Under the pieces are notes generated by a model. The model did not search any database. It was not told the origin of the DNA and was given only the letters and a program-made list of their open reading frames with translations. From Roseibacillus ishigakijimensis (lineage in GTDB: Bacteria > Verrucomicrobiota > Verrucomicrobiia > Verrucomicrobiales > Akkermansiaceae), in NCBI RefSeq assembly GCF_016595415.1, contig NZ_JAENIO010000006.1, positions 1 to 64,000 of the forward strand: a DNA stretch of 64,000 nucleotides, given 5' to 3'. This document shows, piece by piece, positions 42,327 through 54,211 of the stretch. Made by a program: the position numbers and the translations under genes. The first letter of the stretch is position 1; each line of letters starts with the position of its first letter.

Positions 42327-43376
42327 GTGAACGCGCACTCTCCTTTTATCCTGACTGTTGGCAGCCTTTGGCTGGGCCTATCCACTACCAATGCGGTCAA
42401 TATCGTCCTCGATTTTGTCCCCTCCAATAATCTTTTCTCAGGAAATGCCACCGCGCGGGCAGCGGTTAGCCAAGCGGCCTCCGATATCAGTGCGGCGTTG
42501 ACCAATTCGCTTTCTCCGCTGGCGACTGACACCTACACGGGGACCAATGGCGCGAATTCATCGACCGTAGATTGGCGTTTGCAATACACCCAGCCCAATT
42601 CCGGGAATGCGGTGACATTGGAGAATCCCCACAGTTCTCCCGGGTTCGGTCTTGACGAGATTAAGATTTACGTGGGAGGGCGTGATTTGGGGGGGAACAC
42701 GCTGGGGCAGGGCGGGCCGGGAGGAATTGGCTTTAATTTGGGTGGCACGATCGGGCCGGGTTCATTTGCCGATGCCGTCGACCAGATGGAGGCCCTTTCC
42801 GATGCGGCCATGCTGCGGGGGAGTGGGCCGGTGCTCTACGTTCAGAGCACAACCTTCAACGGAGAAGATGTGACCTTGCAATCGGGAATTTTTGTCGGAA
42901 ATCTCTGGTTTGACACCGATACCGACAATGATGGGAACACGGATAGTGCTGCTGAGTTGGGGTTGAGCTGGCACTATGACCACACCATCGGGGTGGCCGG
43001 TGGAAAGATCGATCTCTACACCGTTGCTCTTCACGAGATTCTCCATGCCATTGGTTTCGGCATTGGCGAAAGCTGGAATAGCCAGGTCTCGGGCAATGAA
43101 TGGACCGGGATGGAGGCCAACAGTGTCTATGAAGGACTAGGCGCGGTGCCCATTGATGGCGGACATTTGGCGGCCGGGACGATGAGCACCAGCATTGTGG
43201 ATGGCTCCACCCAAGAGGCGGTCATGGGCCCCACTCTCAGTGCGGGCCAGCGCAAGACCTTGACCGAGCTGGACCTCGCCATCCTTCGGGACCTTGGCTA
43301 CGAGACCATCCCCGAGCCCTCTTCGCTCTCGCTCTGTGCGTTGGGCTTGCTCGCGGTATTCCGGCGCCGGAAGTAG
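42327..43376 (+). CDS. PEP-CTERM protein with HExxH metalloprotease-like site
   Basis: 349 residues from a GTG start with signal peptide; no clear ribosome-binding site precedes it. A metzincin-like core is visible: VALHEILHAIGFGIGES, with His236, Glu237 and His240, but Ile where the third zinc ligand of a classical HExxHxxGxxH site would stand. A preceding DTDTDNDGNTDSAAELG segment is a calcium-type loop. The end is IPEPSSLSLCALGLLAVFRRRK, a PEP-CTERM tail for exosortase-dependent export. It is probably an extracellular protease or a relative that lost one ligand. The last 79 bases overlap the convergent PLDc_N gene. Confidence 0.85.
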   Translation: MNAHSPFILTVGSLWLGLSTTNAVNIVLDFVPSNNLFSGNATARAAVSQAASDISAALTNSLSPLATDTYTGTNGANSSTVDWRLQYTQPNSGNAVTLENPHSSPGFGLDEIKIYVGGRDLGGNTLGQGGPGGIGFNLGGTIGPGSFADAVDQMEALSDAAMLRGSGPVLYVQSTTFNGEDVTLQSGIFVGNLWFDTDTDNDGNTDSAAELGLSWHYDHTIGVAGGKIDLYTVALHEILHAIGFGIGESWNSQVSGNEWTGMEANSVYEGLGAVPIDGGHLAAGTMSTSIVDGSTQEAVMGPTLSAGQRKTLTELDLAILRDLGYETIPEPSSLSLCALGLLAVFRRRK

Positions 43377-43621
43377 AGCAGTGCGGCGACGGCCCCAAGG
43401 ATCGGACAGAGGAAAATGACGAGCATCCAGAGCGGGACCTCGCTGCCCTCTCCCTCGCACAGCACCCTACGAACGGCTGCAATCGTGCTCCAGACCCAGA
43501 AGACAATGATGAGGACGTTGAGGACCTGAGCGAGAAAGAATGGCCAGCGAAATCCGGAATCGTATGCGAGGTCGCTCTGGACCAAGAGGTCAGTAGGTTG
43601 GGTGAGGAGTGAGGCAGTCAT
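43298..43621 (-). CDS. PLDc_N-type small membrane protein
   Basis: 107 residues with two helices: FFLAQVLNVLIIVFWVWSTI and WMLVIFLCPILGAVAALLYFRRR. The second helix, with its CPILGAxAY/LLYFxxRR pattern, is the phospholipase D N-terminal (PLDc_N) module that also occurs alone as a small membrane protein. No HKD catalytic motif is present, so it is not a phospholipase. The tail (TASKPNAQSESEEGSGMVS) lies in the 79 bases shared with the convergent PEP-CTERM gene. It follows the Lgt-like gene by 6 bases and is the last gene of that operon. Confidence 0.78.
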   Translation of the reverse strand: MTASLLTQPTDLLVQSDLAYDSGFRWPFFLAQVLNVLIIVFWVWSTIAAVRRVLCEGEGSEVPLWMLVIFLCPILGAVAALLYFRRRNTASKPNAQSESEEGSGMVS

Positions 43622-43627
43622 GGCTAT

Positions 43628-44332
43628 TCAAGCGAAGGCTATCGGCGGATGGAGTTGCCGTCGACGAAAAGCGAGCAGACCGATGAAGGTCAGCGCCAAA
43701 GCGAAGAGTTGATAGCCGGAGAGCCCGAGGAAGGGCTTGGGGGTGGCGCGAAGAAATTCGTGACCAAAGCGAAACAAGCCGTAGGCGATGAGGTAGAGGT
43801 GGAAGTGTTGGCCCCGGAGAAGGCCGAAACGGCGAAAGTTGAAGAAGAGAAGGAAGGCGAGCCCATTGAAGGCGATTTCCACCTGCACGGCGGGCCAGTG
43901 GGTGAGGGGCCCGAGCGAGCAGGCGATCCCGCGGCAGCAGCCGTGACTGAGACACCCGAGGCGGCCCACGATGAGGGCGAGGGGGACCACGGCGGCGAAG
44001 CCATCGCCGGTCGCTTTGCGATAGCCGAGAAGTTTCTTGGCCCCCTCCACTCCGAGGAAGCCGCCCAGCAAGGCTCCGGTGACGGATTTGCCAGTGAGCC
44101 AGTGGAGAAGCCGCTGATCGGAGGCCGACACCAGCCAGCCTTCGGAAAGGAGGTAGGCCAGCTTGGCTCCGAGAAAGGCACAGGCCAAGGCGGCGCCGTA
44201 GATGAGCGGGATGAGGGGGTCGTTTTTGCTACGGCGAATCCAGTAAACGGCGGAGAGGATGATTCCCAGCAGCAAGGTGAGGGGGTAGTAGGGAAAACCG
44301 GCGTTGGGAGCGCTGGGGAAGAGCGTGCTCAT
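43628..44332 (-). CDS. Lgt-like prolipoprotein diacylglyceryl transferase family protein
   Basis: 234 residues and about seven transmembrane helices. GALLGGFLGVEGAKKLLG, TGDGFAAVVPLALIVGRLGCLSHGCCRG and GLFRFGHEFLRATPK correspond to the Lgt core, in which GRxGNF/CFxxG carries the essential Arg. Lgt moves diacylglyceryl from phosphatidylglycerol to the cysteine of prelipoproteins in the inner membrane. This copy is shorter than housekeeping Lgt (about 260-300) and has Cys-rich GCLSHGCC where Lgt has GNFIN, so it is a divergent paralogue that may use another acceptor. It starts in the stop codon of the preceding small membrane gene (ATGA). Confidence 0.8.
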   Translation of the reverse strand: MSTLFPSAPNAGFPYYPLTLLLGIILSAVYWIRRSKNDPLIPLIYGAALACAFLGAKLAYLLSEGWLVSASDQRLLHWLTGKSVTGALLGGFLGVEGAKKLLGYRKATGDGFAAVVPLALIVGRLGCLSHGCCRGIACSLGPLTHWPAVQVEIAFNGLAFLLFFNFRRFGLLRGQHFHLYLIAYGLFRFGHEFLRATPKPFLGLSGYQLFALALTFIGLLAFRRRQLHPPIAFA

Positions 44333-44817
44333 GGCTGTTCGGCGGGGGCGGGCAGAGGCTCTCCCGCGGGGGTGAGGTCACGGCCCGTGCCCAAGAACCC
44401 TTCATCTTCATCCGCAGTCGTTTCCCCGGGACTCTCGGTTTCTCGGGCTTTTCGTTCCTCTTGTTGCCGCACCCAATCATCGGGCGGGCGGTGTCCGAAG
44501 CCCTCATCTCCGAGGCTGCCGAGACAACCGGCGAAGAAGATGATGAAACAGAGCGTGGCCTCTGCGATGGGATAAATAATCAAGCCCAGTGCCAGCATGC
44601 CGCCGCTTACTTTTTTCCGGAGAGTGACGAGCAGAAGAATCCACCCAACTAGAATGGCGAAAGCTCCCGAGCCGAGGGCCGAAAAAGCGAGGTCGGGGTT
44701 CTTCTCGATCGCTGCCCAGAGAGAGAGAAGAGCGGTGACCACGATGGGCAGGAGATAAGCGATCCAGAGGCTCTTGGTGTGGACCTTAGCCCGAGGTGGA
44801 AGAGCGGGAGGAGTCAT
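44329..44817 (-). CDS. Small four-helix membrane protein (paralogue B)
   Basis: 162 residues: a short Pro-rich start, a KSLWIAYLLP entry into helix 1, three more helices, the last reading YPIAEATLCFIIFFAGCLGSLG, then an acidic, Pro-rich tail of about 55 residues. The plan (polar start, Trp at helix 1, Tyr-Pro and Gly-Cys around helix 4) is shared with the proteins at 44881-45207 and 46575-46877. No known domain recognised. It lies between paralogue A and the Lgt-like gene, overlapping the latter by four bases. Confidence 0.75.
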   Translation of the reverse strand: MTPPALPPRAKVHTKSLWIAYLLPIVVTALLSLWAAIEKNPDLAFSALGSGAFAILVGWILLLVTLRKKVSGGMLALGLIIYPIAEATLCFIIFFAGCLGSLGDEGFGHRPPDDWVRQQEERKARETESPGETTADEDEGFLGTGRDLTPAGEPLPAPAEQP

Positions 44818-44880
44818 GTTCGGATGGTTTATCAGAGGCGAGCCACAAGGGCGAGAACAAGAAGCGGGATAGAGGTTCCC

Positions 44881-45207
44881 TCAATGGATGGGATTGTCCA
44901 TGAAGTAGAGGGCGCATCCGGTGAGAGCGAGGGTGAGTAAGATAATCAGCTGGGCAAGAGGGTAGAAGAAAACGAGGAGGCAATGACTGCTTCCCTGATA
45001 GCGGTCTGCAGTCATTCTGGCAAAGACTCCCCAGCCTATGCAGTAAGCGGTTGCGAGAGAGATGAATAACCAGGCGCCGACGAGAGGGGGGTCACCTGAA
45101 AAAATGGGGTAGCTAAGGAGGGCGATAACGAGTAAGACGAGCCCGGGCGGCCCCAGCATACTGAGCCACAGTCCACGAGTGTTGAGTTCGGGAGGTTCGT
45201 CGTTCAT
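44881..45207 (-). CDS. Small four-helix membrane protein (paralogue A)
   Basis: 108 residues: polar start MNDEPPELNTRG, then LWLSMLGPPGLVLLVIALLSYP, two central helices, and FFYPLAQLIILLTLALTGCALYF at the end. The layout matches paralogues B and C, including the Tyr-Pro before and Gly-Cys within the last helix. The ATG sits in the TGA that ends the radical SAM frame, so it is translationally coupled to full-length radical SAM translation and not to the shorter product ending at the internal TAA. Function unknown. Confidence 0.78.
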   Translation of the reverse strand: MNDEPPELNTRGLWLSMLGPPGLVLLVIALLSYPIFSGDPPLVGAWLFISLATAYCIGWGVFARMTADRYQGSSHCLLVFFYPLAQLIILLTLALTGCALYFMDNPIH

Positions 45208-46559
45208 CAGGCCAGGCCGTAGTAGCGGCAGAAGGAGTCGAGCTGTCCATCGGGACGAATGACGTGGGTGCAGCAGCGGTCGATGCGGTCGTCATCCCAA
45301 GTGCCGGCATCCATGAAGGGCTTGATGAAGAGGCGGAAGGTGTCCTTTTCGCGCAGTTCGAAGTCCTTCAGAATCGCTCCCAGTTCGGTGTTTTCGCAGC
45401 CACATTACACGAGGTCGGAGAGATGGTAGCGAATCTTGTCCTGCAAAAATCCCTGCACTTTCGCAAAGTCGATGAACTCGGAGACACTGCGCGTGCCCAG
45501 GGGGGTCTTGAGCAGATAGCCAATGGTGGCGCAGTTCGGGTCCCCGCAGGGCAGGGGGGTGAAGTCGTCGGGCCCGAGCTGGTCATCCGATTGCGCCATG
45601 AGCCCGAGAATGATGTCGGCGGTGTTCAAGCGGCGTTCGCGGGCGTGGGTGCGGCCGGAATGGAACAGGGGCTGGAAGGAGACGCCCCGGCAGCTCTCAT
45701 ACCCGAGCCCGAATTGCACCGTCTCCCAGAGGTGGGGAAGATTCTCCGGCATCACGGTCATGGCGAGGGTGACGGGCAGACCGATGGCTTCGCAGTTGGC
45801 GAGCGCTTTTTTCTTCATCTCCCGCAGGTCTGTCCCCCGCAGCTCGACTTGTCCTTCCTGTTGGGGACCATCGAATTGTAAGTAAAGTTGCAGGTGTCCG
45901 CGCGAGACCCGCTTGCCGAGTTCCTCCAAGAAGCCCTTGTCGCCTGCCAGCTTCACGCCGTTGGTATTGATCAAGGCATAGTCGATACGAGGTTCCTCGT
46001 GAATCCAGTCGAGGAGTGCGAAGAACTCGGGATGGAGGGTGGGCTCTCCGCCGGAGAGTTGCAGCAGCTCGATGGGGCCTTTCCGATCGAGGACTCCAGT
46101 GATGCGTTGCTGGAGGGCGGCGAGGGAATGATACTTGAGGCGCTCGCCCGTGCCTGCCGGGGAGTCGGCGAAGCAGGTGGGGCAGGCGAGATTGCACGAG
46201 TCGACAATCTCGATGAGGGCGAGGCAGGTGGAGAGTTTTTCGATGGTGTCGGGCTGCCCGGCGTTTTTTCCCAACGTCCCCGGCAAGCCCGTGGAATCGG
46301 CGGGAGTGCAAGCGCAGCCGGGGCCGCAGCGATTGTCCTCCGAGCCTTGCGCCAGCCAGTAGAAGCGGGCGTCGGAGGAGATCACGGAGGTGCTCTCGCC
46401 ATGTTCGGGACAGCGCCGCCGTAGATGGACCTCGCTGTGGCCCTCGGCGGAGGAGATTTTCAAAACCTCCGCTGGCACCCGCTGGAGACAATCGGGACAA
46501 CGCGAGGTGGTGCGCTTCAGCTCGCGCGGATCGCGTAGGAGTGAGGTGGAAAAGTTCAT
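45207..46559 (-). CDS. Radical SAM enzyme (MJ0619/Tes-like), interrupted by an in-frame TAA
   Basis: 450 codons if codon 385 (TAA) is ignored; 384 residues if it is obeyed. N-terminal zinc-like module: RCPDCLQRVPAE and RRRCPEHGES; then CGPGCAC; then TCLALIEIVDSCNLACPTCF with the CxxxCxxC radical SAM cluster; SGGEPTLHP binds SAM; CGDPNCATIGY and FIDFAKVQ follow. After the TAA the same frame runs 65 more codons (CGCENTELGAILKDFELRE ... RCCTHVIRPDGQLDSFCRYYGLA), the conserved Cys-rich end of this family, and stops in ATGA shared with the next gene. The family includes tetraether lipid synthases and pterin C-methyltransferase candidates. CAA to TAA is the simplest change. Confidence 0.85.
45405..45407 (-). 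other. In-frame TAA inside the radical SAM gene
   Basis: Codon 385 reads TAA between DLV and CGCEN. Reading continues without frame change or other stop to the TGA at 45207-45209. It may be a recent nonsense mutation, an assembly error, or readthrough; UAA is the least likely of the stops to be recoded. Confidence 0.8.
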
Positions 46560-46574
46560 AGAAAAGAGAAGGAT

Positions 46575-46877
46575 TTAAAGAAAGGCCTGACAGCCGAGAC
46601 TCATGGCAAAGATCACGAGCGGGATGACGACAACCTGACAGAGGAGAAAGAGGAAGGTGCTCCAGGCCAGCGTCTTTTTGTTGACTTGAGCGCGCCCCTC
46701 TTCCTTTGAGATTTGGAGATAGGAGGCAAAGAGTCCGCAAGCTAGCAAAACGCAGCCGGCGACAGTTAGGAAAAGGATGTTCAGGGGGATGTGGTGAGGA
46801 TGAGCGCTCAACAAGAGAAGTGTACAGCCCACAAGGGCTCCCCCTGCACAGATGCCGGGCACGATCCAGCAGAGCAA
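46575..46877 (-). CDS. Small four-helix membrane protein (paralogue C), start uncertain
   Basis: 100 residues from a TTG at 46877: IVPGICAGGALVGCTLLLL, two central helices, and QVVVIPLVIFAMSLGCQAFL, again with Gly-Cys in the last helix. Upstream the frame stays open with a Pro-rich polar stretch and a Trp (PQSPPPRPSSASNWLLLL), just like the starts of paralogues A and B, but contains no ATG, GTG or TTG before a TAG. So the true start may be a rare ATT/ATC or may have been lost. It is the first gene of the radical SAM operon, 15 bases before that gene. Confidence 0.65.
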   Translation of the reverse strand: MLCWIVPGICAGGALVGCTLLLLSAHPHHIPLNILFLTVAGCVLLACGLFASYLQISKEEGRAQVNKKTLAWSTFLFLLCQVVVIPLVIFAMSLGCQAFL

Positions 46878-47006: not shown

Positions 47007-48572
47007 TCACTCTCTTTGCCCGTCGCGCAGTTTGAGGATGCGCTTCATTTCGGCGATGGCTTCGGGGTGGTGGAAGGCTCCGTGTCCAGCGGGGATGAGC
47101 TTCTCCGACACCGCGCGGGGGAAGTGGCTGCTTTGCCAAGTGACCACCCCGTCCGAGCTTTTCTCCACCGGGCCCTTGCGCCCGCGAGTGCCGATGATGC
47201 TGTGATAGATCACGGGATGGGCTGGGGGCAGAGTGTCGAGGATTTGCAGCGTGGGCTGGCGGGGGGAGAGCGAACTCACGCTATCCAGCTGTCCTTTGCC
47301 GAGAGCGGCGTAAGCGGGGGTGAAGACACCGGGATTATCGGCGCTGATGCGCTGGTAAAATTCTTGGAAGGGGCGCGGGGGCGCGGCGATGAGGCGGCCC
47401 AGTTTGCCGATGAGATTATCCGCATAACTGCTCCCCCGGTGGGGCACATTGCAGAAGATGATGCGGCCGATGGCTTTCTCGCTTTTCCACTCGAAGGCAT
47501 TGGTCAGCTTTTGCCTATCTTCGGGCGAGAGCTTGAGTTGCTCCGGGGGCACCTGAAAAGCCGCTTTCCAAAAGGTGTCCCGGGGTTCGACTACGAGGGC
47601 CTTGCCCACCAGCCCGCCCATGCTGTGGGTCAGCAGGGTGATGTGTCGACTGGCGTAGTCGTCGCCTTCCGGGTCCAGCAATTGCCGCAGTTCCTTCAGC
47701 TGATTGCGCAATTGCCGCGAGGAGTAGAGGGACGGGGCCGAGGTATTATACTGGTAGTGCCAGATTTGATAACGTTTCTGGATTTCCGGGTCGCCCCACA
47801 TCTCGTTGCTCACCTTGGCCCAGGCCAGGGCGGTGGAGAGGAGGCCGTGGATCATGATGAGAGGTTGCTTGTCCGGATCGTAGGGCTCCATCAGGTAGAG
47901 CTGGGGCGGGCGGTCGGACTTGCGGGTGAGGACGTCGGTGACTCCGGTGCGCCAGAGGCTGCCCGTGCGCTCGAGAAAGGCCGCCCAAGCCACCGAGAAG
48001 TCGGCGGCCAAGGGCACCCGCGAGGGGCCCGGGACATCCTCGTGCAAGAGGGGGCAGGCCAGATAGATGGAGGCCTCGCGGGGGCCGGTCTGGGAGATGA
48101 AGGCGGTCAGGGGGCGGGTGATGCCATGAGGCGGGTAGAATTTTTCAATGGGCAACTCGCCCTTGTTCTCGCGCAGTCCCACCAGCGAGGCCCCCCGCCC
48201 CTTGCGCTTGAAGTGGGGTAATTTGACCACCCGGAAGTCCTCCGCCGGGAGCAGTTGGTCGTAGAACTTGAAGCTGAAATCCGGCTGGGGATGGCTCTCG
48301 AAGTGGACCGTCCAGGGCTGGCTCTCGCCGGGAAGGACGATGGTGTCACGCTCTCCCCGGCCGGCTTCCTTCCATTTTTCCACAAAGTGAGCTAGGGCGT
48401 GATCGGCCTCCTCGTCCTCGCTGAGGGCCAGCTGGAGCAAGGCTCCCTCTTCGGAATGAGCCAAGGCATGGTCGTTGCTGTGAGCCATGCGCTTGATCTG
48501 AGCCGGAACCAGAGAGCAGGAAGGGAGACAAGTGAGGAGGACGAGGGCGAGCAGAAGAGAAGAGAGGCGCAT
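47007..48572 (-). CDS. Alpha/beta hydrolase (lipase-like) lipoprotein
   Basis: 521 residues. The lipoprotein signal is MRLSSLLLALVLLTCLPSC with Cys19. A 220-residue beta-rich N-terminal part of unknown type precedes an alpha/beta hydrolase domain: PLIMIHGLLSTALAWAKV (oxyanion region), HITLLTHSMGGLVGKAL with the nucleophile Ser in HSMGG, FCNVPHRGSSYADN, and a late GHGAFHHPEA with the probable catalytic His. This resembles periplasmic or surface esterases that act on acyl esters. The gene follows uvrA by 11 bases; the pairing looks positional rather than functional. Confidence 0.88.
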   Translation of the reverse strand: MRLSSLLLALVLLTCLPSCSLVPAQIKRMAHSNDHALAHSEEGALLQLALSEDEEADHALAHFVEKWKEAGRGERDTIVLPGESQPWTVHFESHPQPDFSFKFYDQLLPAEDFRVVKLPHFKRKGRGASLVGLRENKGELPIEKFYPPHGITRPLTAFISQTGPREASIYLACPLLHEDVPGPSRVPLAADFSVAWAAFLERTGSLWRTGVTDVLTRKSDRPPQLYLMEPYDPDKQPLIMIHGLLSTALAWAKVSNEMWGDPEIQKRYQIWHYQYNTSAPSLYSSRQLRNQLKELRQLLDPEGDDYASRHITLLTHSMGGLVGKALVVEPRDTFWKAAFQVPPEQLKLSPEDRQKLTNAFEWKSEKAIGRIIFCNVPHRGSSYADNLIGKLGRLIAAPPRPFQEFYQRISADNPGVFTPAYAALGKGQLDSVSSLSPRQPTLQILDTLPPAHPVIYHSIIGTRGRKGPVEKSSDGVVTWQSSHFPRAVSEKLIPAGHGAFHHPEAIAEMKRILKLRDGQRE

Positions 48573-48583
48573 CGCCCCTCACC

Positions 48584-51500
48584 TTACATTGTTAATAAAT
48601 TTTCCAAAGCTTCTTTCAAAAAAGGCGCGGTGCGGGAGGCTTTGCTTTTCGCCACTTGCTCGGGTGGGCCGGCCGCGACGATGGTGCCGCCGGCCGCTCC
48701 GGCTTCGGGGCCGAGGTCGAGGAGGTAGTCGGCCTGGGCCGCGAGGTCCATGTGGTGCTCAATGACGATCACGGTGTGGCCTTCCTCCACCAGGCGATGG
48801 AGGACCTCGACGAGCTTGGCGACATCGGCCCCGTGTAAGCCGATGCTGGGCTCTTCGATGAGATAGAGGTTCGCTTGCTTCACGCCGGAGAGGGCGGCTT
48901 TGGGGGAACGGCCTTTGATGAGTTGGGAAACGAGCTTGATGCGCTGGGCCTCGCCGCCGCTGAGGGTGGGGCTGGGTTGACCGAGCTGCAGATAGCCCAG
49001 GCCGGTGTCGGCGAGGAGGGAGAGGGTCTTGCTCAACTTGGGCACGGCGGCGAAGAATTCCGCGGCCTCCGCAATGGTGAGGTGGAGCACTTCGCCAATG
49101 TTCTTGCCGTGGTAGGTGACCTCGAGGGTGGCGGGATTGTAGCGAGCCCCTTCGCAGGCCTCGCAGTCGATCCAGGTGGAGGGCAGGAAGTCCATCTCGA
49201 GCTTGATGCGGCCATTGCCTTTGCAGTCCGGGCATTGGCCTTCCTTGTTGTTGAAGGAAAAACGGCCTGCCTCGTAGCCGCGCATGCGGGCCTCGGGCAG
49301 TTGGGCGAAGAGCTTGCGAATCTCGTCAAAGAGTTTCACATAGGTCGCCGGGCAGGAGCGGGAGGTCTTGCCGATGGGGGTCTGGTCGACCTCGTAACAG
49401 GCCTTGAGGTGCTCGAAGCCCTTGATGGATTGCCAGCTCTTGTCGCTGTTTTTTTGGGAAAGGGAGTCGAAGGCGGGCTTGAGGGTGCCGCGCATGAGGG
49501 AGGATTTCCCGCAGCCGGAGACGCCGGTGAGCACGGTCAGGCGGCCGAGAGGCAGGGCCACGTCGATGTTTTTGAGGTTGTTGTAGCGGCAGCCCTTGAG
49601 CTTGAGCCAGCCTTCGCGCGCGTTCTTGGCGGGAATCTTGCGTCGGGCTGGAGCGGGCAGGGAAACCCTTTCCACCGCTTCGGGCGTTATCAGCTCGCCG
49701 CCCAGCCGTCCGGCGCCGGGGCCGAGGTGGATTTGGTGGTCCGCGCGGGCCATTGTTTCCTCGTCATGCTCGACGATGAGGAGGCTGTTCCCTTTTTGCT
49801 GCAGGGCGCGCAGGGTGTCGAGGAGCTTGACGTTGTCGCGGGGGTGGAGGCCGATGGTGGGTTCGTCGAGAACGTAGAGCACGCCGCGTAGATTGGAGCC
49901 CAGTTGCGCGGCGAGGCGGATGCGCTGGGCCTCGCCGCCGGAGAGGGTGTTGGCCGAGCGGTCGAGGGTGAGGTAGCCGAGTCCGACCTCGGCGAGGAAG
50001 TGGAGGCGCTGGGTGAGCTCGGGCAGGATGTCGCGGGCGATGAGCTTGTCGCGGCCCGTGAATTGAAGCAGGCCGATGAGTTCCTGGGCCTCCAGCACGG
50101 AGAGGGAGGCGAGTTGGGGCAGGCTGAGCGATTCCTCGCCGTCGTTGGGGAGGAAGACGTGGCGGGCGGCTTCGTTGAGCCGTGAGCCTGCGCACTCGGG
50201 GCAGGTTTTCAGTTCCTCCTCGTCGGCGCGGTCGAGCTTGCGGTCGTAGTCCAGTTCGGCCTCCGAGACCGAGTTGTAGCCGGAGGCGTCGTATTTGCTG
50301 CGCTGGACGGTGACGTGTCCGTAGCCCCGGCATTTGGGGCACCAGCCGCGGGGGGAATTGAAGGAGAAGTGGCTGGGGTCGGGGGCCTCGAAGGAGCGCC
50401 CGGTGGCGGGCGAGACGCGGGCGGTGGAGAGGGGGAGGAGTTCGCCGGAGGCGGTGAGGAGGCGGCAGGTGCCTTTGCCCAACTTGAGGGCCTCGGAGAT
50501 TTTTTCGGCCAGGGCCGTAGCAGAGGGCGGACGCTTCGGCGAAGCGTCCCTACCGCCGAGGAGCACGGCGTCGATATCGTGTTCGACGAAGCGTTCGAGG
50601 CGCTCGAAGTTGGCGGAGTCTTGGAATTCCCCGTCGACGAGGAGTTGTTCGTAGCCGTGTTTGTCGGCCCATTTGGCGACATCGGTGTGGTAGCCTTTGC
50701 GTCCGCGCACGAGGGGGGCCAGCAGGGTGACTGGTCCCTTTTTGGCCTCGTCTTTGACCCGTTGCAAAATGGCGTCCTCGGTTTGGGAAATGACGGGCAG
50801 GCCGGACTCGGGGCAATGCTGCACCCCCACTTTGGCGAAGAGGAGGCGCAGAAAGTGGTAGAGCTCGGTGATGGTGGCGACGGTGGATTTTCCTCCCCCA
50901 CGCGAGACCCGTTGCTCGATGGCGACTGTGGGCGGGAGGCCTTCGATCTTGTCCACCTCCGGTTTCTCCAGTTGTTCGGCGAACTGCCGGGCGTAGGGCG
51001 ACATGGAGTCGAGGAAGCGCCGCTGGCCTTCGGCAAAAACGAGGTCGAAGGCGAGAGTGGATTTTCCGGAGCCAGACAGTCCGGTGACCACCACCATTTC
51101 GTCGCGGGGAATATCGAGAGTGATGTTTTTCAGATTATGGTGACGCGCCCCGTAGATGGAGATGGCGTTTTTCTGCTTTTGAACAGGATGAACAGGATTT
51201 CCTGAAACTTTGTCTGAAACTTTAGTTTTTAAGTTTTTCGTTTTTCGTTTTCCCCCAAGGAGGGGGGCGAGGAATTGCCCGGTAAGGGTCCCCGCCGCCG
51301 CCACCTCCTCCGGCGTGCCTTCAGCCACGATTTGGCCTCCGTGGCGCCCGGCTTCGGGACCGAGGTCGATGAGGTGGTCGGCGCACTTGATGACGTCGAG
51401 GTTGTGCTCAATGACGAGGAGGCTGTGGCCGCTGTCGACGAGCTTCTGGAAGATGAGGAGCAGGCGCTCGATGTCGGTGAAATGCAGGCCGGTGGTGGGC

Positions 51501-54211
51501 TCGTCGAGGATGAGGAGCGCTTTTTGGATCTCAGATTTGGAATTTGAGAATTGGGATTGGGCCAGGAGTTGGCAGAGCTTGAGGCGTTGGGACTCGCCGC
51601 CGGAGAGGGTGTTGAGGGGTTGCCCGAGGCGCAGGTAGCCGAGGCCCACGTCGATGAGGGGCTGCAGGAGAGTGGCGGCTTTGTGGAGGAGTTTCTTTTC
51701 TTTCGCGGATGCCTGCGGCGAGGTCGTTTTGGGTGCGGATGCCTGCGGCGAGGCATCCCTACCGGAGTGGGCCCAAGTGACGAATTCCTCGATGGTTTGG
51801 TCGAGAAGGTCCGCGATACTATGTCCCTCGTAAGTGAAGTCGAGGGCGCTGCGGTTGTAGCGGCGGCCTTCGCACTCGGGGCAGGTGAGATAGAGATCGG
51901 AGAGGAACTGCATCTCGACTTTCTCAAAGCCATTGCCCAGGCAGCGCTCGCAGCGGCCGGCCCCGGAGTTGAAGGAAAAGTAGCCGGGCTTGAGTCCGGC
52001 GGCCTTGGCCTCGGGCATGAGGGTGAAGAGCTGGCGCAGCGCTTCGAAGGCGCCGAGGTAGACCGCCGGGGTGGACTTGGGGGTGCGGGCGAGGGGAGTC
52101 TGATCGATCAATTGCACGGACTGGATTTGTTCCGGGGGGAAGGTCAATTCGCTGATGGGGGCAGGTTCGTCTTCGGTGGCTTCTCCCAGTTCGCGGGCCA
52201 GATTGAGATAGAGCACGTCGTGGGCGAGAGTGGATTTGCCACTGCCCGAGACCCCGGTGAGGCAGGTGAAGGTGCCGAGGGGAAGGTTCAGCTCGACCTC
52301 GCGCAGGTTGTTCTGGTTGGCCCCGGTGAGGGTGAGGAAGGTGTGGGGTGTGCGGCGTTGTTCGGGGAGGGGGATGGTCTTTTGCCCGGTGAGATAGGGC
52401 AAGGTGATGGAGGCCGTTTTTTTCTGCTCGCTGAGGGGACCCTGATAGACCAGCTCGCCGCCGTGCTGTCCGCTGCGGGGACCGATGTCGAGAAGCTGGT
52501 CGGCGGCGCGCATCACGATTTCGTCGTGTTCGACGGCGAGGAGGGTGTTGCCCTTGTCGCGGAGGTCGTGCATCACCTTGACCAGGGCGGAGATGTCGCG
52601 CGGGTGCAGTCCGACGGTGGGCTCGTCGAGCACGAAGAGAGTTTGGGACAGGCTGGTGCCGAGACAGGTGGTGAGATTGACGCGGGCGATTTCGCCGCCG
52701 CTCAGGGTGCGGGCCGGGCGGTCGAGGGTGAGGTAGGAGAGCCCGACTTGGAGGAGGTATTGCAGGCGGGAGGTGATTTCGCCCAGGATGAGGCCCAGGG
52801 TTTTGTCGAAGGCCAGCTTGCGGGTGACCTCGGCGCTGGCCTCGAGTTTCTGGAGAAAATCGGCCAGTTCATCGACCGGCATTTGCCAGAGATCGGGGAG
52901 GGTTTTGCCTTCGATTTTGAAGGCGAGGGCCTCGGGCCGCAGGCGGCGGCCGCGGCAATCCGCGCAGCGGGTGTAGCTGCGGTAGCGGGCGAGGAAGATG
53001 CGCACGTGCATCTTGTAGGACTTGCTCTCCATCCAGTCGAAGAAGCCCTTCACGCCATACCACTTGCCTTCCTGCCAGAGCTTCTCGCTATCATTGCTAC
53101 TACCTTCCCCGTAGAGAATCCACTCCTGCTGGTCGGGGGTGAGGTCGCGATAGGGTTCGTGGAGATCGATGCCGACTTCGGGGGCGAGGCGTGCGAGATC
53201 GGCCTGGCATTCCTCCCCGCGCTCGCCCTGGAAGGGTTTGACCACCCCGTCGGCGATGGAGAGGGAGGGATTGGGGACCGCTTTTTGCAGATCGATGCCT
53301 ATGACGCGACCGAAGCCCCGGCAGGTGGGGCAGGCGCCGAGGGGATTATTGAAAGTGAAGAGCGCGGAGGTCGGTCGTTGCAGGGGCGCCCAACTGGTGG
53401 AGAAGGTCTTCCTTTTGTCCCCCGCTGCAGGGGTCACCGTCGCTTCTCCTTTGCCGAGGCGGAGAGCGGTCTCCAGGGCCTCGAAGAGCCGGGAGCGGTT
53501 GCGGGAGCTGGCCTTCACCCTATCCTGAATGACCTGCACACTTGTCGTCTCGCTGAGGTCGAGGTCCGGGGCCGGATCGTCGGTGCGCACGAGGGTGCCA
53601 TCGGGCAGGAGGAGGCGCAGGTAGCCCTGATTTTGCAAAAAGGGGAAGAGGTCCTCACTACGGGTGTCCTCGGGGATGGGCACGGGAAAGGTGATCAGCA
53701 CGGGCTCGTCAGCGAGGTTTTCCAACGTCCAGGCGGTGGCGCTGGCGGGGGTATCGGGAGCGATTTCCTCGCCCGTGCGGGGGTGGTAGCCCTTTGCCAG
53801 GCGGGGGTAGAGCAGCTTGAGGTAGTCGTTGATCTCGGTGAGGGTGCCGACCGTGGAGCGGGTGGTGCGGATTTGGTTTTTTTGCTCGATGGCAATGGCC
53901 GGGGGGATGTTCTCGATGGCATCGACCGCGGGCTTGTCCATGCGGTCGAAGAACTGGCGCACGTAGGGGGAGAAGGTCTCCACGTAGCGGCGCTGGCCCT
54001 CGGCGTAGAGAGTGTGGAAGGCCAGGGAGGACTTGCCCGAGCCGGAGGGACCGGTGACCACCGTCAGTTGTCCGAGCGGAATATCGACATCAAGGCCCTT
54101 GAGATTGTGTTGGCGTGCGCCCCGCACCTCGATGGAGGGAGCTTTCTTCGCAGTCGAATTTTTAGCGGAAGCCTTCTTGGTGGCTTGGCGGGAACTCTTT
54201 TTGGCGGGCAC
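48584..54211 (-). CDS. uvrA: Double-length UvrA excinuclease subunit (four ATPase sites)
   Basis: 1875 residues: two complete UvrA units in one chain after a Lys/Ala-rich start. Walker A motifs: GPSGSGKSS (54), GVSGSGKST (about 652), GLSGSGKST (about 1043), GVSGCGKSS (about 1561). Each is followed by an LSGGE signature, Walker B ([23 protein letters not shown]) and UvrA Cys pairs ([48 protein letters not shown]). UvrA recognises DNA damage and loads UvrB for nucleotide excision repair; normally two 940-residue chains dimerise. Chlamydial UvrA is likewise double (about 1,790 residues). Two palindromic repeats lie in frame near residues 820 and 1225. Confidence 0.95.
50526..50557. repeat. Palindromic repeat in frame in uvrA (copy 1)
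   Basis: GGACGCTTCG (50529-50538) and CGAAGCGTCC (50540-50549) form a perfect 10-bp stem with a single central base, followed by CTACCGCC. On the coding strand it starts GGCGGTAGGGACGC. It encodes [11 protein letters not shown] between helices of the UvrA chain. Confidence 0.75.
51705..51763. repeat. Palindromic repeat in frame in uvrA (copy 2, with partial duplication)
   Basis: GGATGCCT (51737-51744) and AGGCATCC (51751-51758) pair around GCGGCG and are followed by CTACCGG, the same plan as copy 1. A direct partial copy GCGGATGCCTGCGGCGAGG lies at 51705-51723, 30 bases to the left. Together they encode [12 protein letters not shown] and SPQASAKEK. Confidence 0.75.

Follow-up and report, generated by a model that had tools for sequence, protein, structure and literature searches.

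Lgt transfers a diacylglyceryl group from phosphatidylglycerol to the thiol of a cysteine that is located at the outer end of a helix with its N-terminus inside (N-in). Tetraether synthase (Tes), a radical S-adenosylmethionine (SAM) enzyme, couples lipid tails: hydrogen is taken from the terminal carbon of a tail, and the coupling proceeds via a carbon-sulfur intermediate at a cluster (PMC9433317). Relatives of both enzymes are encoded in one compact operon of Roseibacillus ishigakijimensis, within a stretch of 64,000 nucleotides (positions 1 to 64,000 of contig NZ_JAENIO010000006.1) that is referred to as the window. The operon specifies a Tes-fold radical SAM protein, an Lgt-like enzyme and three small membrane proteins (SMP1, SMP2 and SMP3) that carry a cysteine in their last helix. 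Comparison with other genomes indicated that these three kinds of components accompany each other in bacteria of several phyla, and a role in the modification of membrane proteins is proposed.

Co-occurrence of the radical SAM and Lgt-like genes

The distribution of the two enzyme genes was surveyed in samples of 387 Verrucomicrobiota and 392 Planctomycetota genomes and in plasmid records for two more phyla, using a profile that separates the Lgt-like family (at least 190 bits) from ordinary Lgt proteins (at most 90 bits) in the training set. All 49 genomes with an Lgt-like gene among these 779 genomes also contain the radical SAM gene. Among the Verrucomicrobiota, the radical SAM gene was detected in 13 genomes and the Lgt-like gene in 11 (at least 216 bits, with the next match at 150), all of which belong to the 13, and the 38 Planctomycetota genomes with an Lgt-like gene are likewise contained in the 56 with the radical SAM gene. 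The corresponding hypergeometric figures, uncorrected for shared ancestry, are 1e-19 and 2e-39. Two Verrucomicrobiota genomes have only the radical SAM gene according to the profiles; one of them contains a diverged Lgt-like gene adjoining the radical SAM gene, the other contains none.

Moreover, the two genes are physically linked. In the Planctomycetota, 38 of 39 Lgt-like genes are located on the same contig as the radical SAM gene and 37 within 3 kb of it, with a median gap of 88 bp. The pair also occurs together on plasmids of Mycobacterium branderi and M. avium, in Nonomuraea and in Persicobacter, and the system is present in Verrucomicrobiota, Planctomycetota, Actinomycetota and Bacteroidota. 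The pair is unlinked in two Haloferula genomes, being 334 kb apart in one of them (G345), with both genes still present. The Lgt-like gene is an obligate companion of the radical SAM gene. Conservation of the neighbourhood in relatives had been set beforehand as a test of the original prediction, which was made from the letters of the window, and the gene set is kept far beyond these relatives, in four phyla.

Two loci on Mycobacterium plasmids (L078 and L113) combine the Lgt-like gene, genes for small membrane proteins ending in a cysteine and the radical SAM gene in one operon. At two further loci (L137 and L138), a gene for an ICMT/PEMT-type membrane methyltransferase is inserted between the radical SAM and Lgt-like genes, which is suggestive for chemistry at a lipidated cysteine. 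Ferredoxin-like, ferritin-like and ICMT/PEMT-like neighbours are each confined to single lineages.

Small membrane proteins with a common cysteine in the last helix

The small proteins encoded beside the gene pair mostly have three helices, as called from hydropathy alone, and belong to at least four families between which no alignment is possible, including a Verrucomicrobiota family, a Planctomycetota family with an N-terminal zinc ribbon, a family ending in NAAC and a mycobacterial family. An assignment to known Pfam families was rejected, as the search yielded only noise-level matches apart from the zinc ribbons. The sole feature that these otherwise unrelated families share is a cysteine in the last helix. 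It represents the only conserved cysteine column in the Verrucomicrobiota (15/16), NAAC (11/11) and mycobacterial (3/3) proteins, and it is conserved in addition to the zinc-ribbon cysteines in the Planctomycetota family. The last helices of SMP1, SMP2 and SMP3 close with the Gly-Cys already noticed in the original prediction (MSLGCQAFL, LTGC and FAGC, respectively).

Across 45 proteins, the cysteine is preceded by G/A/V at position -2 and, in 34 cases, by G/A/S at position -1, is often followed by L/F/I/M at position +1 and leaves a tail with a median length of 10 residues. Lysine and arginine residues are concentrated in the loop between helices 2 and 3 (65 residues) when compared with the loop between helices 1 and 2 (14 residues), a bias observed in 19 of 20 proteins. 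According to this positive-inside charge distribution, the cysteine is predicted to lie at the outer face of the membrane, which is the face at which Lgt works.

A qualifying small open reading frame (ORF) with such a cysteine was detected within 2.5 kb at 30 of 42 loci containing both enzyme genes, at one of 15 loci containing the radical SAM gene only and in one of 134 control strand-windows, which were drawn from 450 kb of sequence of these or related genomes. The enrichment is uncorrected for relatedness, although a single inherited accident is disfavoured by the presence of at least four unrelated families of small proteins. When adjacent and distant small ORFs within the same loci were compared, a p value of 0.05 was obtained, the 'distant' set containing further copies from the same operons. 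Additionally, 20 genomes were screened with a profile built from the small proteins of Verrucomicrobiota, which revealed strong members in most carriers of the system. Both Haloferula genomes contain unlinked members, far from the radical SAM and Lgt-like genes, with the endings FGSCMVVLQ, YGCCFAVLA and FGICMAGMALA, and these stand-alone members indicate that the three parts co-occur even when they are dispersed. In nine system-free genomes, the profile gave no match in seven and marginal matches without the motif in two (E 0.002-0.004); no member was found with it in two carriers (G014 and G415).

The small proteins evolve rapidly, as the ratio of nonsynonymous to synonymous differences (pn/ps) is 0.48 for SMP3 and 0.15 for the radical SAM gene, and they are present in multiple copies. 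In Roseibacillus persicicus (locus L020), three tandem copies of SMP1 homologues are located upstream of the radical SAM gene, and the SMP3 homologue is encoded at L020:9945-10496. An additional, degenerate SMP1-like protein (L257), encoded outside the window on genome contig C159 (89125-89418), no longer has the last-helix cysteine.

The Lgt-like enzyme

The Lgt-like protein of the window matched the Pfam family PF01790 with 66.5 bits, compared with a gathering score of 24.9, and stayed below the cut-offs of the NCBIfam Lgt equivalogs (40.3 of 334 bits and 36 of 118.9 bits). Its predicted structure, with a predicted local distance difference test (pLDDT) score of 90.6, matched E. coli Lgt (5AZB) with a Z score of 12.9, the next match having a score of 5.9. 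In an alignment of 44 Lgt-like proteins with the ordinary Lgt proteins that ten of the genomes encode, numbered via 5AZB, the equivalents of R143 (43/44), Y235 (44/44) and R239 (44/44) are kept, the equivalent of E243 is E or D and that of R246 is R or K. The conserved P...E motif of Lgt is also present, whereas an invariant lysine (K99 in the window) is absent from Lgt. Two types of Lgt-like proteins can be distinguished by the motifs GRxGCxxxGCCxG and GRxGCxxxGLxDxTxG. The Lgt-like enzyme of the original prediction keeps the catalytic Arg/Tyr/Glu set of Lgt, but its active site differs from that of Lgt at two positions considered below. Since a separate, strong ordinary Lgt is encoded in 15 of 16 carrier genomes checked, the Lgt-like gene does not represent the housekeeping Lgt.

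The radical SAM protein in relation to Tes and TrsS

The best NCBIfam matches of the radical SAM protein of the window were TrsS (NF045646, 182 bits) and Tes (NF045702, 133.7 bits), the former being also the top match for nearly all relatives tested. Both scores are below the curated cut-offs of 490 bits for TrsS and 450 bits for Tes, as are those of the relatives, which reached up to 341 bits for TrsS and, in ten relatives, at most 324 bits for Tes. The only near full-length relative in the PDB that was found by sequence is Tes of Methanocaldococcus jannaschii (7TOL). An AlphaFold2 model of the intact protein of R. persicicus (pLDDT 83.5) was superimposed on 7TOM with a Z score of 38.7 and a root mean square deviation of 2.4 A over 380 residues. 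The next match had a Z score of 19.6, and SuiB and SkfB, maturases of ribosomally synthesized and post-translationally modified peptides (RiPPs), are among the following folds. The nearest fold is accordingly that of tetraether synthase and not that of a cofactor enzyme, and the second test named beforehand for the original prediction thus likewise came out in its favour. In this model, the protein has the whole four-domain architecture described for Tes (PMC9433317), comprising a rubredoxin-type domain, an N-terminal cluster domain, the radical SAM (RS) core and a C-terminal cluster domain.

The protein type found in the window keeps the rubredoxin-type C-x2-C..C-x2-H motif, the RS motif CX3CX2C and the cysteines of the C-terminal cluster, and it shares with Tes the C-terminal motif FMDA...RCC.H...FC.Y. 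It differs from Tes (MJ0619; 7TOL, 7TOM), to which it is 27-28% identical, by an N-terminal cluster motif CX3CXC instead of CX3CX2C plus His, by a lysine at the position of the labile Met439, by extra cysteines (TC before the RS motif and PLPC after the core) and by the Lgt-like partner gene. The extra cysteines C110 and C336 (R. persicicus numbering) are invariant in 46 relatives.

A quick maximum likelihood tree of 59 proteins, including a single archaeal Tes sequence assembled from alignments, placed the radical SAM protein of the window in a clade of 21 rows (support 100) that is separate from Tes of M. jannaschii. Every row of this clade is accompanied by an Lgt-like gene in the same genome, with the exception of one located at a contig end. 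Tes of M. jannaschii grouped with a planctomycete protein (L153; support 99) without an Lgt-like partner, near haloarchaeal proteins. Judged from sequence scores, tree and model, the protein is a predicted Tes-fold enzyme that lies outside the archaeal Tes clade and is not assignable as Tes. The original designation as a tetraether-synthase-like enzyme agrees with the predicted fold along the whole length of the protein.

TrsS loci presumably pair with the methyltransferase TrsM. Among the loci compared here, those with a methyltransferase neighbour (L079, L081 and L115) lack an Lgt-like gene; they contain Tes/TrsS-like radical SAM genes and are located on mycobacterial and haloarchaeal plasmids. 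Tandem pairs of genes for related Tes/TrsS-like radical SAM proteins occur without an Lgt-like gene in Verrucomicrobiota and Planctomycetota (L140, L148 and L155) and form a separate clade.

Organization of the locus in the window

The window belongs to a Verrucomicrobiota assembly of 4.14 Mb in 192 contigs, and the closest relative compared is R. persicicus KCTC 12988. The positions of the ORFs confirmed the predicted arrangement of six minus-strand genes between 46877 and 43298 with spacings of -4 to 63 bases, the successive gaps being 15, -4, 63, -4 and 6 bases (Table 1). The TTG start of SMP1 is uncertain, as the reading frame stays open farther upstream.

Table 1. Features of the operon and adjacent genes in the window, in the direction of operon transcription with flanking genes last
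Feature	Position	Strand	Remarks
SMP1, small membrane protein with three helices	46575..46877	-	last-helix Cys is residue 96 (46590-46592); C-terminus ...AMSLGCQAFL
Tes-fold radical SAM protein (predicted)	45204..46559	-	450 codons, read through TAA at codon 385
In-frame TAA, codon 385 of the radical SAM gene	45405..45407	-	CAG (Gln) in R. persicicus KCTC 12988
SMP2, small membrane protein with three helices	44881..45207	-	last-helix Cys is residue 98 (44914-44916); C-terminus LALTGCALYFMDNPIH
SMP3, small membrane protein with three helices	44329..44817	-	last-helix Cys is residue 98 (44524-44526), followed by a charged, proline-rich tail of 64 residues
Lgt-like enzyme	43628..44332	-	234 aa; active-site motif GRLGCLSHGCCRG; R124, C127, Y184, R188, E192
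Sixth ORF, protein with two helices	43298..43621	-	no last-helix Cys
Secreted protein with PEP-CTERM-like C-terminus	42327..43376	+	overlaps the convergent sixth ORF
Alpha/beta-hydrolase-like protein	47007..48572	-	immediately upstream of the operon
UvrA-like ORF	48584..54211	-	1875 aa

The interruption of the radical SAM gene that had been noted at codon 385 is real. The codons following the TAA are as constrained as those preceding it (pn/ps of 0.130 and 0.152, respectively), and the stop is therefore either a recent nonsense change or a sequence error. The DNA past the TAA encodes the conserved motifs CGC, FMDA, RCCTH and SFCRYY. A selenocysteine-like recoding was rejected because position 385 varies among relatives (Q/K/T/R/H), the rest being ordinary; selenocysteine recoding moreover requires TGA.

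The sixth ORF was considered as a further part of the system and rejected, as it lacks the cysteine and has no counterpart adjoining the radical SAM and Lgt-like pair in relatives; it probably lies outside the system. The PEP-CTERM-like gene is absent from the same place in R. persicicus, and the hydrolase-like gene is not located beside the pair in relatives. The UvrA-like ORF has about twice the usual length, apparently representing a tandem UvrA, and the compared R. persicicus segment is 87% identical.

Proposed function and alternative explanations

The original interpretation, that the operon may modify membrane lipids or attach lipid to the small membrane proteins, is partly supported. 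We propose that the system performs a three-part modification of membrane proteins in which the small polytopic proteins would be the substrates. Their last helix would enter the membrane from the basic cytoplasmic loop and end in [GAV]-[GAS]-Cys at the outer face, an orientation that would be the same as that of a lipoprotein signal peptide with its lipobox cysteine. The Lgt-like enzyme, equipped with the phospholipid-handling Arg, Tyr and Glu residues of Lgt plus an active-site cysteine of its own, would move a glycerolipid group onto the cysteine thiol. The Tes-fold radical SAM enzyme would either prepare the donor lipid or form a second bond, tail-to-tail (C-C) or tail-to-S, and the outcome may be a protein joined to an unusual, possibly membrane-spanning, lipid. 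There is hardly any doubt that the three parts work together, and the last-helix cysteine is probably the modified site. We infer that the Lgt-like enzyme would be the modifier and that the radical SAM enzyme may act on a lipid; the complete mechanism, in which the Lgt-like enzyme lipidates the cysteine with a lipid or bond made by the radical SAM enzyme, may be correct but is put forward with reserve.

Several observations argue against this mechanism. The radical SAM protein lacks about 30 residues of the segment that connects the RS core with the C-terminal cluster in Tes, and some of the Lgt-linked radical SAM proteins have lost cysteines of this cluster, so that Tes chemistry should not be assumed; in addition, the gene of this strain bears a stop codon. 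In the Lgt-like proteins, the column of Lgt His103 is occupied by V/T/L/M and that of Asn146 by cysteine in all 44 sequences, and acceptor or donor chemistry may therefore differ from that of Lgt. The last charge, usually K or R, precedes the cysteine by a median of 23 residues in the 45 proteins, and the sequence context fits a lipobox well at position -1 only, with F, G or N often found at position -3; the strict motif [LVI][ASTVI][GAS]C after an N-terminal signal helix is absent from these proteins, the cysteine being located in the last helix. Moreover, 12 of the 42 loci with both enzyme genes have no qualifying small ORF under the strict rule, some of them (L113, L130 and L133) containing a cysteine outside this rule. 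No small protein was found at locus L127, which has both enzyme genes, and one R. persicicus copy lacks the cysteine.

An alternative that deserves consideration, unlikely as it appears, is a lipid-making operon in which the radical SAM enzyme couples or alters the tails of free membrane lipids to form bacterial tetraether or diabolic-type lipids. The acceptor of the diacylglyceryl group moved by the Lgt-like enzyme would then be a small thiol or a head group, with the small proteins serving as scaffolds or as subunits of the enzyme complex, held by their cysteine. This explanation draws on the whole-length Tes fold, on phosphatidylglycerol as the donor of Lgt and on the proposal that bacterial 'Tes homologues' are makers of branched glycerol dialkyl glycerol tetraethers (brGDGTs) (PMC8941075, PMC11868695). 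It is weakened by the Tes score and the position of the radical SAM protein in the tree, and a scaffold role leaves unexplained why at least four unrelated families have nothing but the cysteine in common, why copies are multiplied and why lone members occur elsewhere in the genome. Free bacterial tetraether lipids are not favoured as the product.

The rapid evolution and multiple copies of the small proteins would also suit a RiPP-like maturation, which is somewhat less probable again. Here, the radical SAM enzyme would modify the small proteins as precursors of membrane-active peptides, for instance by crosslinking the last-helix cysteine through a C-C or thioether bond, and the Lgt-like enzyme would be a divergent partner with another role. 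The appearance of SuiB and SkfB after Tes in the fold search is in line with such an activity. However, no leader peptide or cleavage site was seen in the small proteins, the genes beside the pair include no conserved protease or exporter, and the cysteine is predicted at the outer face while radical SAM enzymes are cytoplasmic. A redox or metal role is decidedly improbable: the cysteines of the small proteins and the GC..GCC motif of the Lgt-like enzyme, with its invariant C127 and the CC pair of one type, might form a membrane thiol relay or a metal site feeding electrons to the clusters of the radical SAM protein, but each small protein has only one conserved helix cysteine, at the outer face and distant from the cytoplasmic enzyme, and the CC pair is missing in the other Lgt-like type, which has the same partners. 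A chance assembly of unrelated genes in a compact genome, suggested by general gene density only, is refuted by the co-occurrence in 49 of 49 genomes and the conserved adjacency in several phyla and has a negligible probability.

Comparison with known systems

In the open-licence literature on radical SAM enzymes with Lgt, lipobox motifs or membrane-spanning lipids, no description of this gene set was found, in agreement with the original prediction, and the system appears to be undescribed so far. The MYXO-CTERM/myxosortase system likewise has a cysteine beside a C-terminal helix, for which lipidation by a yet-to-be-found Lgt-like enzyme was predicted, but this cysteine precedes the helix, resulting in an inverted topology, and a CPBP-family protease cleaves the protein (PMC11980579). 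In the system presented here, the helix comes before the cysteine, the proteins are small and polytopic, and conservation extends to a radical SAM gene but not to any protease; a cysteine N-terminal to the C-terminal helix and the Arg-rich tail of MYXO-CTERM proteins are not found, the median tail being 10 residues long. The parallel is therefore read as an analogy and not as membership. The Lgt-LspA-Lnt pathway and the DAG-RiPPs (PMC12636315) resemble the system in the position of the target cysteine, where an N-in helix reaches the outer face, and in the use of an Lgt-type enzyme. They differ from it in that the putative target here belongs to a polytopic protein, in which it is the last helix and has only an approximate lipobox, and the loci have neither LspA nor Lnt as a conserved partner.

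The comparison with bacterial Tes homologues concerns published surveys, in which such proteins were counted as possible brGDGT producers under a threshold similar to the one applied here (PMC8941075, PMC11868695). Several of the Lgt-linked radical SAM proteins (L129-L133, L144 and L080 from Persicobacter) exceed limits of about 30% identity and E < 1e-50, scaled to a large database, in comparison with Tes of M. jannaschii, and these proteins are accompanied by an Lgt-like gene and usually also by small membrane proteins. The surveys, which used another Tes as query, may accordingly have included members of this system. It is conceivable, though rather doubtful at present, that the system represents a new class of protein lipidation, in which an Lgt-like and a Tes-like radical SAM enzyme would attach a radical-modified, possibly membrane-spanning lipid to an outward-facing cysteine of a C-terminal helix. 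If so, a large part of the proteins so far classed as 'bacterial tetraether synthase' would belong to this system, and lipoprotein biogenesis and radical lipid chemistry, which are now separate fields, would be joined in a dispersed system. The two-gene signature makes this question testable in cultured strains such as Roseibacillus persicicus and Haloferula rosea.

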